The translations under genes and the position numbers were made by a program. Positions 4,418 to 27,914 of a DNA stretch of 28,407 nucleotides are shown here, one piece after another; the first letter of the stretch is position 1, and every line of letters starts with the position of its first letter. The notes beneath the pieces are model-generated. The model was not told where the DNA came from, did no database searches, and saw only the letters and a program-made list of their open reading frames with translations. Origin of the DNA: Chloroflexota bacterium (GTDB taxonomy: Bacteria; Chloroflexota; Anaerolineae; Aggregatilineales; Phototrophicaceae); NCBI GenBank assembly GCA_026706395.1, contig JAPOYU010000006.1, positions 1 through 28,407 of the forward strand, in the 5' to 3' direction.

Positions 4418-5455
4418 ATGTCTTCCAAGAATCTGATCGTCGGCTTGGGCAATCCCGGGGGGAAATACGCGAAGACTCGCCATAACATCGGCTTCCAAGT
4501 TGTCGAGGAGTTGGTGGCGCGTTACAGGCTCGGCGCCGGCAAAAGCGAGAGGCGCGCGCGGACTTGGGACGGTCATATCAAGGGCCTGCGGGTCAAACTT
4601 GCTCAGCCGATGACCTACATGAACCGAAGCGGAGAATCCGTGCGCCAACTGGTGGACTATTATAAAATCCCGATTTCGAATCTACTCGTCATTCATGATG
4701 ACCTTGATACGCCTTTTGGCATACTCCGTTTACGTCAAACGGGCGGGCATGGTGGGCAGAATGGTCTGCGCAGCATAATCCAGCACCTTGGCAGTAAGGA
4801 CTTCGCTCGTCTGCGCTTTGGCATTGGCCGCCCGCCCGGCAGAATGGATCCGGTTGATTACGTGCTGCAACGCTTCCAAGGCGACGATGTGATACGCGCT
4901 AGTGAACTGGCCGGACGCGCCGCTGATGCTGTTGAGGTTTGGCTGAGCGAAGGCATTGAGCAGGCTATGACCCGTTTCAATGGCGACGCGGTTGGCATAG
5001 GCCTAGCGCCAGCCAAGCGCGACCTCGAGAAGCAGCTTGCGATCGCGCAGCGCGCTCAGGAATTAGCCCCCGCAGACGCAAAGCCTCTTATGAAGCTCAT
5101 CGCTTTGCAGAAGAAACTGGGACACATCGACGCCGCCGTCGAAAACCACTTGAAATTGGCGCGTCTTTTGGACAGCCGGGGCAACTCAACGCTCGCCATA
5201 GCCGAAAAGGTGAAGGCAGTTTCGATTCGTCCATCACTTGTCACTGTGCAACGCGAGATCGCTGAATGGTTCTTGACGCAAGGCAACACGAAGAAGGCCG
5301 TGAATCGGTATCTAATCTTGGCGCAGCATCTCTGCGAACAGTCTGACAAGGCCACGGCTGTGGCGGAAGTAGAGCGCGCGCTTAAGATCAATTCGCAGCA
5401 TCCAAAAGCGCTGGAAATGTTGCGAACGCTGAAGGTAACATCCGCATCGAAGTAA
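4418..5455 (+). CDS. pth: Peptidyl-tRNA hydrolase with C-terminal TPR-like extension
   Basis: Residues 1 to about 188 are a complete bacterial peptidyl-tRNA hydrolase, which releases stalled peptides from tRNA so that both can be reused. The active-site set is intact: Asn12 and His22 (GNPG, TRHNIGF), Asn69 (MTYMN), Asp95 (IHDDLD) and Asn115 (GGHGGQNGLRS). Bacterial Pth normally ends at about 190-200 residues, but here the frame continues for about 150 more. That extension is all helical, with helix pairs such as LMKLIALQKKLGHIDAAV, AEWFLTQGNTKKAVNRYL and AVAEVERALKINSQHPKAL, typical of three or four TPR repeats. No stop or frameshift is seen at the junction. The extension could bind a partner such as the ribosome or another rescue factor. 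The serine hydrolase gene follows 40 bases later. Confidence 0.93.
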   Translation: MSSKNLIVGLGNPGGKYAKTRHNIGFQVVEELVARYRLGAGKSERRARTWDGHIKGLRVKLAQPMTYMNRSGESVRQLVDYYKIPISNLLVIHDDLDTPFGILRLRQTGGHGGQNGLRSIIQHLGSKDFARLRFGIGRPPGRMDPVDYVLQRFQGDDVIRASELAGRAADAVEVWLSEGIEQAMTRFNGDAVGIGLAPAKRDLEKQLAIAQRAQELAPADAKPLMKLIALQKKLGHIDAAVENHLKLARLLDSRGNSTLAIAEKVKAVSIRPSLVTVQREIAEWFLTQGNTKKAVNRYLILAQHLCEQSDKATAVAEVERALKINSQHPKALEMLRTLKVTSASK

Positions 5456-18511: not shown

Positions 18512-21016
18512 TTAAGCGCCACTTTGGAGCAGAGCCTGAATAAATGGTATGAGCATGAAAATGATCACAACAGCTACGCCGACGAATAGCACGACTGCGT
18601 AAAGGCGCACATAGCCGGTCTGCGAACGGCGCATCCAGTTTGCCGCGCGCTGCACGAAAATGCCGACGCCGTTGACCGTGCCATCCACGATTCCCAAGTC
18701 AATGGGCCGGCTGAGCAAATCCCCAATAGTATCGAAGCCGCGCTTGATGATCCGATCGTGGAAATAATCGTGCAGGAACTCCCAATCGACACGGATGGCC
18801 AGGAAGTCGGCCAGCCTGTTGAAGGGCCGCTCGATTATAGTCGAATAGAACTCATCCCAATAAAGCCGACCATTCGCCAGCTTGAACAGACCCCGCGTAG
18901 GCGCGCTCGTTTCCAATTGATCGCGTTTGTCGCTCGCCAAGCCCTTGCCCTTGTAAACGCGATGGGCGGCCACAATCGAAACGATACCCAGAACCAGGGC
19001 AACGCCCGCGATTAGCAGGTTGAAGTCCAGCGTGTGTCCGCGGGAGACGCTGACCAGACTGTGTTCCAGGAAATGCTTGAATTCGTAGGGATGGTAAATG
19101 CCGTCGATTATCGGCGTCGCTTTTGGCACATTAATCAAGCCAATGACACAGGTGAATATCGCCAGCACAACCAAGGGCAACAGCATGGCGCCGCTGCTTT
19201 CCGGCGCTCGCTCGGCCGCCTCGCTGCGAGCATCGTCAAAGAAGACCAGAACAACCTGCCGCCACATGTAAAAGGCGGTGAAGGCCGCCGCTGCCAACAG
19301 CACGCCAAAGGCGATGAAGCCGCTTGTTTCGTTCAGCTCAAAGCCTTCGAACCAGGCGTCAGCCAGAATCTCGTCTTTCGACCAGAAACCGGCGAAGGGG
19401 AAGATCCCCGCCAAGCCCAAAGTCCCAACCAGGTAGGTCAAATACGTGATGGGCATGCGCTTGCGCAGGCCGCCCATGTTGCGCATGTCCTGCGGATCAA
19501 AGTCGTCGTCCTGGTGCTCGTCGTGATGATCGCCATGTCCCTGATCATGTGCGTGATGATGACCGTGCTCCACGCCATGTATGACGGAACCGCTGCCGAG
19601 GAAAAGCAGCGCCTTGAACACTGCATGCGTCACCAAGTGGAACATCGCGGCGACGTGGGCGCCGATGCCAACCGCCGCCACCATGAATCCAAGCTGTGAA
19701 ATCGTCGAATAGGCCAGCACGCGCTTGATGTCCCACTGTCCCAGAGCGATGAAGCCGGCCACCAGCGCCGTACCTGCGCCAACCAACGTGATGATCAACC
19801 CGAGCACATAACCGGCGTGGTTGAGTTCCCACAAGAATACATTCGACCGAACCATCAAGTAGACGCCGGCCGTGACCATCGTCGCGGCATGAATCAGCGC
19901 GCTGACCGGCGTCGGACCCGCCATCGCGTCCGGCAGCCAGATAAACAGCGGTATCTGCGCTGACTTTCCGGTCACACCCAGAAGCATGAAAAGCGCAATC
20001 AAAAAGATGACATCTTCAAAGGCGATCTGGAAGCCGCCGAAGTCGACCATTTCGCCCTTGCCGAAGCGCTCGGTGGTCTGCCCAAATACGCCCAGCAGAT
20101 CGGTATCAAAGTGATGATTGTCACAGTAGAGCGCGCGGATATCGCTCGCCAGCGGATTCGATTTTCCATGGTCGTCATCGCCATGGTCATCGTCATGCGC
20201 GCTCGCATCGGCGGGCACGCATTTGTACTTTGAGCCATGTCCGTCATCCACGTGGTCATCGGATCCGGCCGTTTCCGTTTCCTCTTTGTGCTCCGCGTCA
20301 GCCTCGTGCTCTACCAGGCCGTTGTGCTCGCGCCAATTCACCAGGTACTTCGCCTCGGTGTTGGGCAGCTCGCCCGCCTTGACGAAGTCAAGTGTGCCAA
20401 AAGTCCAGAAGATCAAGAACATCGCCATCAGCAAACCGAAGTCGCCGATGCGATTGACGACGAAGGCTTTGCGCGCCGCGTTGCTGTTATTCCAGCCTTC
20501 CGGCGCCTTCTTGTCCCACCAGAATCCTATCAACAGGAAGGAGCATAGCCCGACCCCTTCCCAGCCGACGAATAGCATCAGGAAGTTATTCGCCGTAACC
20601 AGAACCAGCATGAAGGCGAGGAACATATTCAAGTAAGCGAAAAAGCGCGGATACCACTTGTCGCCGTGCATGTAGCCGCGGGCGTAAAGATGAATCAAGG
20701 AGCCGACGCCGGTGACGACCAGCATCATCGTCACACTGAGCGAGTCCACCCGCATCTGCCACGTGATTTCCAAGCCGATCGATTCGATGCGCAGCCAGCC
20801 ATCAAAGAACGGCGGATTGACCACTGCCGCGCTACCGCCGGTTCCCGTAACCCAAGACAGCAAAAACAGCGATACTATGAAGGCGAGTATCGACGCGAAA
20901 CAACCGATATAGCCCGACCACTTCTCCCCCAGGCGCGCCCCAAAGAAGAAGTTGATAATTGCCCCGAGCGCCGGAACGAATATCACCAGTGGAACTAGAA
21001 GTGGCAGATTTTCCAT
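18512..21016 (-). CDS. nuoL: NADH-quinone oxidoreductase subunit L with His-rich inserts
   Basis: NuoL is the distal proton pump, with the long lateral helix at its C-terminus. Glu153 (FVGWEGVGLCSFLLIGFWW), Lys351 (GKSAQIPLFIWLPDAM) and Lys431 are conserved. At 834 residues it is about 220 longer than E. coli NuoL (613). One difference is an insert between helices 6 and 7 (region 213-328), roughly 95 residues over normal, acidic and His-rich at 237-283 with repeats of the DDDHGDDDHG kind. Another is a short loop at 480-506 with about ten His in GHHHAHDQGHGDHHDEH. By NuoL topology the first faces outside the cytoplasm and the second the cytoplasm. Both are in frame, with conserved helices directly on each side. 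They may bind metal ions; this is inference. Confidence 0.96.
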   Translation of the reverse strand: MENLPLLVPLVIFVPALGAIINFFFGARLGEKWSGYIGCFASILAFIVSLFLLSWVTGTGGSAAVVNPPFFDGWLRIESIGLEITWQMRVDSLSVTMMLVVTGVGSLIHLYARGYMHGDKWYPRFFAYLNMFLAFMLVLVTANNFLMLFVGWEGVGLCSFLLIGFWWDKKAPEGWNNSNAARKAFVVNRIGDFGLLMAMFLIFWTFGTLDFVKAGELPNTEAKYLVNWREHNGLVEHEADAEHKEETETAGSDDHVDDGHGSKYKCVPADASAHDDDHGDDDHGKSNPLASDIRALYCDNHHFDTDLLGVFGQTTERFGKGEMVDFGGFQIAFEDVIFLIALFMLLGVTGKSAQIPLFIWLPDAMAGPTPVSALIHAATMVTAGVYLMVRSNVFLWELNHAGYVLGLIITLVGAGTALVAGFIALGQWDIKRVLAYSTISQLGFMVAAVGIGAHVAAMFHLVTHAVFKALLFLGSGSVIHGVEHGHHHAHDQGHGDHHDEHQDDDFDPQDMRNMGGLRKRMPITYLTYLVGTLGLAGIFPFAGFWSKDEILADAWFEGFELNETSGFIAFGVLLAAAAFTAFYMWRQVVLVFFDDARSEAAERAPESSGAMLLPLVVLAIFTCVIGLINVPKATPIIDGIYHPYEFKHFLEHSLVSVSRGHTLDFNLLIAGVALVLGIVSIVAAHRVYKGKGLASDKRDQLETSAPTRGLFKLANGRLYWDEFYSTIIERPFNRLADFLAIRVDWEFLHDYFHDRIIKRGFDTIGDLLSRPIDLGIVDGTVNGVGIFVQRAANWMRRSQTGYVRLYAVVLFVGVAVVIIFMLIPFIQALLQSGA

Positions 21017-21374: not shown

Positions 21375-22760
21375 CTATTCGGAGTCGTCGTCAGAGCCAC
21401 CCGGCAGCTTCGCCAGGTAGTCGCCGCTCAGAACATCTGCGCCGGTCTGCTGCGATATAACGCTGACAAGCGGGCGGTTTACACGCCGACGGCGGTTGAT
21501 CCGCCGGCGTTCCGCTTGGGCCAAGGCATCCGGCCGCGCCAATACAATTACGCCAATCAGCGCCACCAGCAGCAACATACCGACCAGCATCACCGGCAAG
21601 ACATATTCAATGAAGAGAACCTGCCCCACTGCTTCAGGGCTGCCGAAGGCGGGTTTCGCAATAGCGGTGAACACGGCAGCGCGATAAGTCGGCTGACTGC
21701 CGGGGATGCCGGGTTCCTGCACCAGCACCCGTGTTTCAATCACGCCCCGCGACGCCTCGTAATCCGCCAAGGTCCGCAGTACTGATTGATCCTGATCGAC
21801 GAATGCCAAGTTATAAGCCCCTTCTTCAAGCTCCAGGCTGATCTTTTGGCCGGCCGGAAGCTGGTTAATCAAGACGCGATGGGGAATCACCGAACTGCAG
21901 GAGTCGTCTTCGCAAAGACTGCGACGGTCGGTGTATTGACCGATATCGATCAGCGAAACCTGTTTGTCGGTCACAGCATTGAAGACCGCCAGACGCATCG
22001 TGCCAACGCTCGGCGCCCTGACATCATCTTCCAGCAGCACAATATCAACGATGCCCTCAACGTTTTCATAGAACACGACAGAATGCGCAGAATCGGCAGT
22101 CAAATCTACAGTTTCGGTTAGCAATGGGCTCGTGGCGAATTCGGCGAGTTCCACTCCGGCAATCACGTTGTATGCGCCGGCTGGCAATACAGAATAGTGT
22201 TGAGTCGCATCGCGCGCATAATCGTAAGCAACATCATCAACACGCCAATCATCCAAACTATTGTCGGCGCTGTCGAGCATAACCGTGCCCGTGACAGTGC
22301 CTTCCAACGTCATAGACCTACCCATGTCCACTATAGTGAACGACTCGCCCTCGCCGGCCGGAATCGCATTGATGACACGTACTTGCGCTTGCGTATCCGG
22401 CTGCTCGACAGATTCGTCGGCCAGCATGTCTGACGCGAGAGGAAAGGCGAAGATCATTAATAATATGATCGCCACTGCTGTGCCGGCGAAACCCAGCCAG
22501 CGCAGTCGACCTGACGTATCCGTGGTTGCCTCCGCGCCGAGCAACATGATGACAAAAAGGAAAAGGACCATGATGGCGCCGGTGTACACGGTCACCTGCA
22601 CCATCGCCAGGAAGGGCGCATCCAGCATCAAATACAAGAAGGCAACGCAGCCAAAGTTAACGATGAGAAACAGGGCGCTATGAACTGCGTTTTGCCGCGT
22701 AAGCATCATGCCAGCCGCAAGGACTGCCACAAAACTCACGACCAGAAACAACCATTCCAT
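21375..22760 (-). CDS. nuoJ: NADH-quinone oxidoreductase subunit J with large DUF4397-like insert
   Basis: NuoJ is a five-helix membrane subunit normally of about 170-200 residues; this one has 461. Helices 1-4 are normal (about 3-21, 27-46, 50-73, 88-108), with the [20 protein letters not shown] core. Helix 5 appears only at about 380-408 ([14 protein letters not shown] then [14 protein letters not shown]). Between them, residues about 115-372 hold two similar beta-rich domains. The first has [13 protein letters not shown], then [11 protein letters not shown] and [11 protein letters not shown]. The second has [12 protein letters not shown], then [20 protein letters not shown]. This pattern is that of DUF4397 domains found in secreted proteins. 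NuoJ topology puts the insert outside the cytoplasm. Cys283 and Cys288 could form a disulfide or bind metal. The tail after helix 5 is Arg-rich, as expected for the cytoplasmic side. Confidence 0.94.
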
Positions 22761-23406: not shown

Positions 23407-24978
23407 CTAATCGCCCGCTCGCTTCAGAGCAGTCTCCCCGCTTTCCAAAACGCGATCCTCTTCCGGCGTACGCCCGAAACTTGCCAGCCCCTCCAAGGCT
23501 CTCACTTGAAAGCGAATATGAACCAAGGGGATAGCGATCAGCATGCCCACCAGGTGGACCAGCGCCCAGCCCAGTCCACGCCGCTCGCCGGTGTATGCCG
23601 GGTCGTCTTCCAGCGGTATCGCTTCTTCGCTGTCTCGGTCGCGGCTCATGCGGCGCAGCGCCAATCCGCCAACGACGAGTACAATCACGAATACTGCGCC
23701 GGAGACTACAGGATAAGCGTCGCCGCCAACGGCGTCCCCAACGACGATCGCGACTGCCGTCCAAGCAACCGCCAACAGCGCCAGCGGAATCATCACTTTC
23801 CAGCCGAACTGCATTAACCGGTCATAGCGGATGCGCGGCAGGGTCGCCCGAATCCAGATCATGCCGCATAACACCAAGAACACCTTGCCGATGAAAATGA
23901 CCGGCGCCAATATCGGCAAGCCATCCATCGGCCACAGGTGGTAACCGCCGAAGAATACCGCTACCGCCACCAGGCTCACCGCGATCATGCCCAAGTATTC
24001 GGCCATCATGAACAGGGCGAATTTCATGCCGCTGTATTCGGTCATATAGCCCTGCGTCAATTCCTGCTCGGCTTCAGTCAAATCAAACGGTGCGCGGTTG
24101 GTCTCCGCCAAGAGCGCCAGGATTAGCACGGCCGCCGCCAGCGGATTCTGGAAGACGAACCAATCCCAGATGTTGCGCTGCGCGTCGATGATATCGCCTA
24201 TCGCCATACTTCCAACGATCATCACCGGCACGGCGAGCGTCAAGCCAAAGCTGAGCTCATAACTAATCATCTGCGCCGATGCCCGCAGCGCGCCCAACAT
24301 GGCATACTTGTTGTCGCTGGACCAGCCGGCCAGCACTACGCCATAAGTCGCGATGCTGGTGATCGCGATCACCCAAAGGACGCCCACGTTGGAATCAACC
24401 AGGCCCTGAGGCACCTGATACCAGACATCGCCCAGCGAAGGCGCAAACCAGGGCAAGACCAAATCGGGCCCCATCGGAATCACCGCAGCGATCATAAGAA
24501 TCGGAATCACTTTGATCATCGGCGCCAGCCGGAAAACCCACTTGTCCGCGCCAGCCGGGAGCAAGTCCTCTTTGAAAACGAGCTTGACGCCGTCGGCCGC
24601 CGGCTGAAGGAATCCCAGCGGACCGACGCGATTCGGCCCGACCCGATGCTGCAGGAAAGCCAGGAGACGCCGTTCCAGCAACGTGGTATAGGCAAAGCCA
24701 GTGACGATGGCAAATGCGAAACCGGCCGCAAATATGATCGGCCACAACGCCGAGCAGCCGGCATCATCTTCACACAGAATCACATTTTGCACGCGCGCTT
24801 CCGGGTTGAGCAGCATGCCAATCGCGCCTTGGCGTCCATTGAGGTTGCCAGCGTCATCAAAGCCGATCCAAGCCGCGATCGCGCCGAGATTGGCGATGAC
24901 CAGCGCCAGCACGAGCAAAGTAACGCCGATTGCCGCGAGGACGCCAACTGCGATGCCTATCTTCAAGTTACGGCTCAT
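23407..24978 (-). CDS. nuoH: NADH-quinone oxidoreductase subunit H with extra N- and C-terminal parts
   Basis: NuoH forms the quinone-binding site at the base of the membrane arm. The core is intact: LLERRLLAFLQHRVGPNRVGP (residues 100-120, slightly shifted), and the acidic ETNRAPFDLTEAEQEL (292-307). With 523 residues it is far above the E. coli length of 325. An extra N-terminal helix (about 8-38) leads into a loop of about 40 residues with Cys69 and Cys75 (ILCEDDAGCS) before the normal first helix. After the last core helix comes an extra helix at about 422-442 and another hydrophobic stretch at about 470-488, plus a charged tail. The loop with the two cysteines should face outside the cytoplasm. 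AGAGGAAG precedes the ATG. Confidence 0.95.
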   Translation of the reverse strand: MSRNLKIGIAVGVLAAIGVTLLVLALVIANLGAIAAWIGFDDAGNLNGRQGAIGMLLNPEARVQNVILCEDDAGCSALWPIIFAAGFAFAIVTGFAYTTLLERRLLAFLQHRVGPNRVGPLGFLQPAADGVKLVFKEDLLPAGADKWVFRLAPMIKVIPILMIAAVIPMGPDLVLPWFAPSLGDVWYQVPQGLVDSNVGVLWVIAITSIATYGVVLAGWSSDNKYAMLGALRASAQMISYELSFGLTLAVPVMIVGSMAIGDIIDAQRNIWDWFVFQNPLAAAVLILALLAETNRAPFDLTEAEQELTQGYMTEYSGMKFALFMMAEYLGMIAVSLVAVAVFFGGYHLWPMDGLPILAPVIFIGKVFLVLCGMIWIRATLPRIRYDRLMQFGWKVMIPLALLAVAWTAVAIVVGDAVGGDAYPVVSGAVFVIVLVVGGLALRRMSRDRDSEEAIPLEDDPAYTGERRGLGWALVHLVGMLIAIPLVHIRFQVRALEGLASFGRTPEEDRVLESGETALKRAGD

Positions 24979-27572: not shown

Positions 27573-27914
27573 TTAAATGCGCCTCTCGACCACTCTTAAT
27601 CCATAGAGCGCGCGGTCTCGCATCACCTGTTCGACCAGGAGCCAACTCCGCCTGTCGTCCATGTCTTCCGCAAGCGTCGCCGCCGCTTCAAAATCGAACT
27701 TCGCCCGCTCATACTCGCCCCGCTCCAGAAAATGCTCGCCTCGCAACACCAGGAGTGTTATCGAGTCAGGCGCTTCTTCAATGGCCTCGCTTAACTCGCG
27801 CAGCCGGCGATAGAATACGCGCTCGCGCTCCGGCGGCGGCTGATAGACTGCGCGAACCAGCCTGCCAAGCAGGCCGCGCCGGTTCACATTTCCGCCTTCA
27901 TGTTCTATTTGCAT
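27573..27914 (-). CDS. Small TPR protein inside the nuo operon
   Basis: The 113-residue soluble product sits eight bases after nuoF and 41 bases before nuoG. It has no signal peptide. A basic segment (about 12-40, LLGRLVRAVYQPPPERERVF) is followed by helices LRELSEAIEEAPDSITLLVL and GEHFLERGEYERAKFDFEAA, which fit a TPR hairpin (about residues 50-88). It is not one of the fourteen standard Nuo subunits. Its place between the genes of two partner subunits suggests a role in assembly or as an accessory subunit of the NADH-binding module; this is inference. Confidence 0.75.
   Translation of the reverse strand: MQIEHEGGNVNRRGLLGRLVRAVYQPPPERERVFYRRLRELSEAIEEAPDSITLLVLRGEHFLERGEYERAKFDFEAAATLAEDMDDRRSWLLVEQVMRDRALYGLRVVERRI

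Follow-up and report, generated by a model that had tools for sequence, protein, structure and literature searches.

We examined a window of 28,407 nucleotides (the whole stretch of DNA analysed: positions 1 to 28,407 of contig JAPOYU010000006.1, Chloroflexota bacterium assembly GCA_026706395.1), whose minus strand carries the end of an NADH-type nuo operon. The operon reads nuoF (part), a 113-codon open reading frame (ORF), nuoG, nuoH, nuoI, nuoJ, nuoK, nuoL, nuoM and nuoN, with gene names assigned from matches and gene order. Few proteins in biology are as strongly conserved as the core membrane subunits of complex I. The subject of this analysis is one of them, NuoJ, which here contains two extra domains. 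Its gene (21375..22760, minus strand, as are all features of the operon) lies between nuoI and nuoK, starts with ATG and encodes 461 residues with a DUF4397 pair between helices 4 and 5, as seen from the ORF, Pfam and a structure model. The five-helix NuoJ is retained around the insert, judging by PF00499 matches at the ends, hydropathy and the model: helices 1-4 occupy residues 2-110 (22431..22757) and helix 5, additionally matched by an FpoJ model at 376-411, occupies residues 375-411 (21528..21638). The insert spans residues 116-372 (21645..22415), as delimited by the model, unit comparison and comparison with plain relatives, and the protein ends in a conserved basic tail at residues 412-461 (21378..21527), defined by alignment, charge and hydropathy. 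We regard this anatomy as near certain. An earlier note, made from the sequence alone, had placed an insert between helices 4 and 5 of a 461-residue frame; position, frame and the start at 21645 agree with our data, whereas the insert ends at 22415, not 22418. The tail motif RRRxNRPLVSVxSQQTG is conserved, basic and unusual for NuoJ.

The window protein matches Oxidored_q3 (PF00499) at E 3.8e-37 (127.7 bits, cut-off 33.2) in two stretches, the best covering 16-119, and DUF4397 (PF14344) at E 7.9e-10 (39.8 bits, cut-off 30.6) in a single stretch, 177-265. Two PF14344 stretches were not found by Pfam in this protein, and the claim of two units therefore rests on a profile-profile match, one relative and the models. 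Profiles of unit 1 (residues 124-246, 22023..22391) and unit 2 (residues 252-368, 21657..22007), built from 51 sequences and delimited by model and unit comparison, match each other with 94% probability (E 1.2e-7); among eight relatives scanned, Pfam recognises two DUF4397 stretches in locus L060 and one in each of the other seven; and both models predict two separate beta-sandwiches. Plain BLAST of window unit 1 against unit 2 gave nothing useful (E 0.093). The earlier note had proposed tandem DUF4397-like units with a beta-sandwich fold, to be checked by hidden Markov model search and structure prediction; both matched, and the family relationship extends to 51 of 51 relatives.

Charge suggests the side of the membrane. 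Over 51 rows the insert averages 13.6 Lys+Arg versus 37.0 Asp+Glu and is net negative in every row, and 47 rows have a tail of net positive charge behind helix 5; because the insert is acidic and the tail basic, the tail is most likely cytoplasmic and the insert outside, in line with the outward-facing loop previously suggested from known topology. This placing is consistent with the E. coli structure, for which PMC8357420 puts NuoJ Ser145 and Glu142 on what may be a connection with the periplasmic surface.

Other members of the NuoJ/Nqo10/ND6 family differ from the window protein in lacking the ~257 extra residues in two domains, and in having a shorter basic tail; to our knowledge, no other NuoJ or ND6 has folded domains inside it. 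No paper on a NuoJ with inserted folded domains was found in the literature searched by title and abstract. Precomputed Pfam labels already show the architecture, which is therefore unremarked in that literature rather than hidden. A parallel is the ectodomain of the mammalian transporters PepT1 and PepT2 (SLC15): like it, the insert in the NuoJ model is a tandem immunoglobulin-like (Ig-like) fold between two helices. The insert profile matches PepT2 (7pmy_A) weakly, at E 0.0016; the likeness seen is one of fold, with 13% identity, and PepT transports substrates instead of being an electron-driven pump. Trypsin is bound by the ectodomain of PepT (PMC4597091). AlgF domains and the luminal domain of HGSNAT gave single-domain matches from other systems that share only the fold.

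A protein search retrieved 1182 proteins at E <=0.001 among 7999 candidates scored, and of the 120 homologues listed 119 have both Pfam families, the exception being P0095, in which DUF4397 is not labelled; the contigs reach 4.5 Mb. A scan of genome contigs gave 297 relatives, and the top 80 of them were studied further; NuoJ is 395-520 residues long in 79 of these, and is truncated by the contig end in L080. Both families were matched, in one frame, in all 51 of the 80 loci that were aligned (E 0.01). The possibility raised earlier that separate genes had been joined by assembly or annotation is therefore excluded by the 119 homologues and 51 loci; unusual length is all that speaks for such an artefact, whereas many independent metagenome-assembled genomes (MAGs) with long contigs and a single open frame speak against it, and we give it practically no credence. 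A 571-residue frame fusing NuoJ and NuoK (P0053) is probably a frameshift in one contig.

Insert-bearing NuoJ is a trait of one order, probably Aggregatilineales. A profile of the insert plus helix 5 (A3, 51 rows) matched 145 of 154 genomes of the order at E 1e-20 and reached helix 5 in 132. The remaining 22 comprise three with inserted-NuoJ pieces on separate contigs (G434, G436, G535), nine with plain NuoJ adjoining nuoI (G415, G438, G439, G440, G544, G546, G549, G550, G552), seven with only plain NuoJ, not seen adjoining nuoI (G441, G456, G483, G537, G547, G548, G551), and three in which PF00499 was not matched (G479, G496, G545). An even draw of 400 genomes across the phylum, 373 of them with PF00499, gave at least five matches at E 1e-20, two of them running into helix 5 and both of these from the order. 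A draw of 199 genomes from the class gave at least 11; ten run into helix 5 and belong without exception to the order, and the eleventh is a DUF4397 within a frame of 2509 residues. Scoring in these draws covered the best few candidates of each genome, so the counts are lower bounds. With every helix-5-reaching match of the draws inside the order, a phylum-wide trait is ruled out.

The insert marks one of two complex I copies. A second PF00499 match, a plain NuoJ in a frame of 174-290 residues, is present in all 34 insert-bearing genomes tested (of 132). Where the operons of these plain copies were read (L111-L119), eight of nine hold two NuoM genes, and in L115 the second-NuoM region is masked by antisense frames; other bacteria are also known to have a complex I with an additional NuoM. 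Queries with window nuoF, nuoG and nuoI gave no match adjoining the plain nuoJ in any of the nine, and nuoG was seen in eight of nine insert-bearing stretches (L120-L128, all except L126). In relatives, too, nuoJ lies in a nuo operon between nuoI and nuoK. L126 and L078 belong to one genome, and in L062, L072 and L078 nuoJ-K-L-M-N is separated from nuoH, nuoI and nuoG, with nuoH and nuoI absent upstream of nuoJ and nuoH located elsewhere. The insert is confined to one complex I copy, the one that includes the NADH module in its operon wherever that operon is unsplit. This restriction to one copy would suit a supercomplex tether, in which the ectodomain would keep a neighbouring respiratory complex or electron carrier attached at the outer face, and its acidity could serve to attract a basic partner; we consider such a tether unlikely, however, and no partner gene turned up in the neighbourhood, although no search aimed at one was made.

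A second change accompanies the insert. The window nuoH (23407..24978; ORF and comparison) encodes 523 residues with N- and C-terminal extensions and an outer cysteine pair, C-x5-C at residues 69-75 (24754..24774), 38 residues ahead of the GPN of the first loop; an aromatic PWF...WY loop at residues 176-187 (24418..24453) is longer than in plain relatives (both from operon comparison). The same arrangement recurs in NuoH of the insert-bearing type: C-x(3-5)-C sits in an N-terminal extension, and its end lies 38 residues ahead of the GPN in the first conserved loop. The NuoH N-terminus presumably lies outside, following ND1/NuoH topology, on the same side as the NuoJ insert. The pair is present in 71 of 71 inserted rows (one flagged short upstream), in four of 15 plain type-1 rows (L131, L134, L136, L137) and in none of 27 type-2 rows, a count that excludes eight duplicate loci, 11 anchor-less rows (among them L073, an inserted locus with a cut NuoH) and loci without NuoH in the stretch (9/80). 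L149 and L150 were typed as type 1 through a weak nuoI match only, and dropping both gives 4/13; L106 and L130 are the same operon. A check set of 11 further insert-bearing genomes from the split group and its neighbours (G008, G532-G534, G536, G538-G543), searched with window NuoH, showed the pair at distance 38 in nine of nine type-1 NuoH, eight of which lie on another contig or distant from nuoJ; 11 of 11 type-2 NuoH were without it, six further pieces had no anchor, and a type-1 NuoH with a readable start was not found by this search in G533 and G539. The pair therefore accompanies the insert-bearing type and is absent from type 2. Among 15 chosen operons, the insert clade is also marked by the PWF...WY loop and by longer NuoM and NuoL loops.

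A likely order of these changes comes from a FastTree phylogeny of 57 type-1 operons, all from MAGs. It was built on 3164 columns of H, I, K, G, L, M and N after thinning of near-identical operons, and covers unsplit operons only. At the base of the order stand five plain operons without the NuoH pair (L129, L132, L133, L135, L138), followed by L131+(L134, L137), with the pair and a plain NuoJ, and then by the insert clade (support 0.99; next node 1.00). L136 has a plain 202-residue NuoJ and is nested within the clade (1.00 with L060/L061/L070/L071), which is therefore most simply explained by loss of the insert. The comparison suggests that the NuoH cysteines came first and the NuoJ insert followed, with one later loss. 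Mapping the appearance of the insert among relatives, proposed in the earlier note, would place the gain after the NuoH pair. Beyond what that note claimed, the insert is order-wide, limited to one complex I copy and apparently preceded by a matching NuoH change.

As to origin, six DUF4397 stretches from insert-bearing genomes were fetched and five proteins scanned, revealing tandem DUF4397 with SH3_3 in L151, L152 and L154 and with Fasciclin in L155 and L156. The insert profile matches such DUF4397 pairs well (e.g. E 5.3e-31 in a 965-residue frame). These proteins share family, tandem arrangement and genomes with the insert but appear secreted (N-termini by eye) and stand outside any membrane enzyme. 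Capture of a ready-made pair would be the simplest origin, and the source was probably the secreted multi-DUF4397 proteins encoded in the same genomes. In L151-L154, the long DUF4397 proteins adjoin an adenosylhomocysteinase-like frame (named by eye) in all four.

What the insert does can be weighed against this history; the earlier note had offered capping of the membrane arm, partner binding and anchoring to the cell envelope as candidate roles. The insert may be neutral, a pair of domains that entered a permissive outer loop a single time and has since been passed on with no function, as the clean loss in L136 and the fast divergence of unit 1 would allow; its retention in 132 of 154 genomes across deep divergence, with acidity conserved, makes this improbable. 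A stronger contender, though still a minority view for us, is an internal brace: the domains would lie across NuoH, NuoA and NuoJ and make the heel of the membrane arm more rigid, without binding anything outside the complex. Mitochondrial complex I, with accessory subunits on its intermembrane-space side, provides the model, and the outer NuoH changes fall on the branch immediately preceding the insert and occur also in genomes with unlinked nuoH. A further parallel comes from E. coli, where, according to PMC8357420, core subunits grow their own stabilising parts: the peripheral arm is held firm by extensions (the NuoB, NuoI and NuoF tails) together with a NuoG loop of 94 residues, although these parts are cytoplasmic and without a folded Ig-like pair. 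Against a brace alone, L136 lost the insert and kept the NuoH pair, and the partner domains of DUF4397 in these genomes are of surface type.

We tentatively prefer, with a confidence somewhat short of even, a fused outward docking or bracing module beside NuoH over the brace alone, the supercomplex tether and the neutral insert. Our reasons are the acidic character of the insert, the surface-type domains that accompany DUF4397 and the change in NuoH. The two-domain DUF4397 ectodomain, built into NuoJ of one complex I copy, would project from the outer membrane surface next to NuoH as the fused counterpart of a supernumerary subunit; this acidic module may tether the complex to a wall or surface component or to a neighbouring respiratory complex, and would take no part in proton pumping. 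Beyond anatomy and co-occurrence, the docking mechanism is inferred. Plain copies, plain basal relatives and one loss indicate that complex I runs without the module. Several observations weigh against docking. In four operons the NuoH pair occurs alongside a plain NuoJ and can thus exist without the insert; unit 1 is highly variable among relatives, as would be expected of a loose surface no less than of a docking site; and the cysteine pair of the insert (Cys283/Cys288 in unit 2, 21897-21914) is not general, being invariant solely among 35 close relatives.

It is possible, if doubtful, that the order turned one complex I copy into a surface-anchored machine, adding first the NuoH cysteine loop and then a NuoJ ectodomain from a secreted adhesion-type protein, such that an NADH-fed pump is tied to the envelope or to neighbouring complexes while the plain copy stays free. 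The order offers a natural experiment, with decorated and plain NuoJ in the same genomes, plain basal relatives, relatives with the NuoH change only and one loss. It opens to test the question of how a core subunit of a pump can acquire outer-face scaffolding without separate accessory subunits.

Three further features of the window deserve mention. The ORF between nuoF and nuoG (27573-27914, minus) is TPR-like by eye and has a same-place match in seven of nine insert-bearing stretches (L120-L125, L128). In NuoL (18512-21016, minus), long His/Asp/Glu-rich loops, including an HD/HG-repeat-rich stretch, flank the conserved middle helices, and the first is much longer in the insert clade than in plain relatives. 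Outside the operon, at 4418-5455 on the plus strand, lies a 345-residue peptidyl-tRNA hydrolase-like protein with an additional C-terminal half that is TPR-like by eye.
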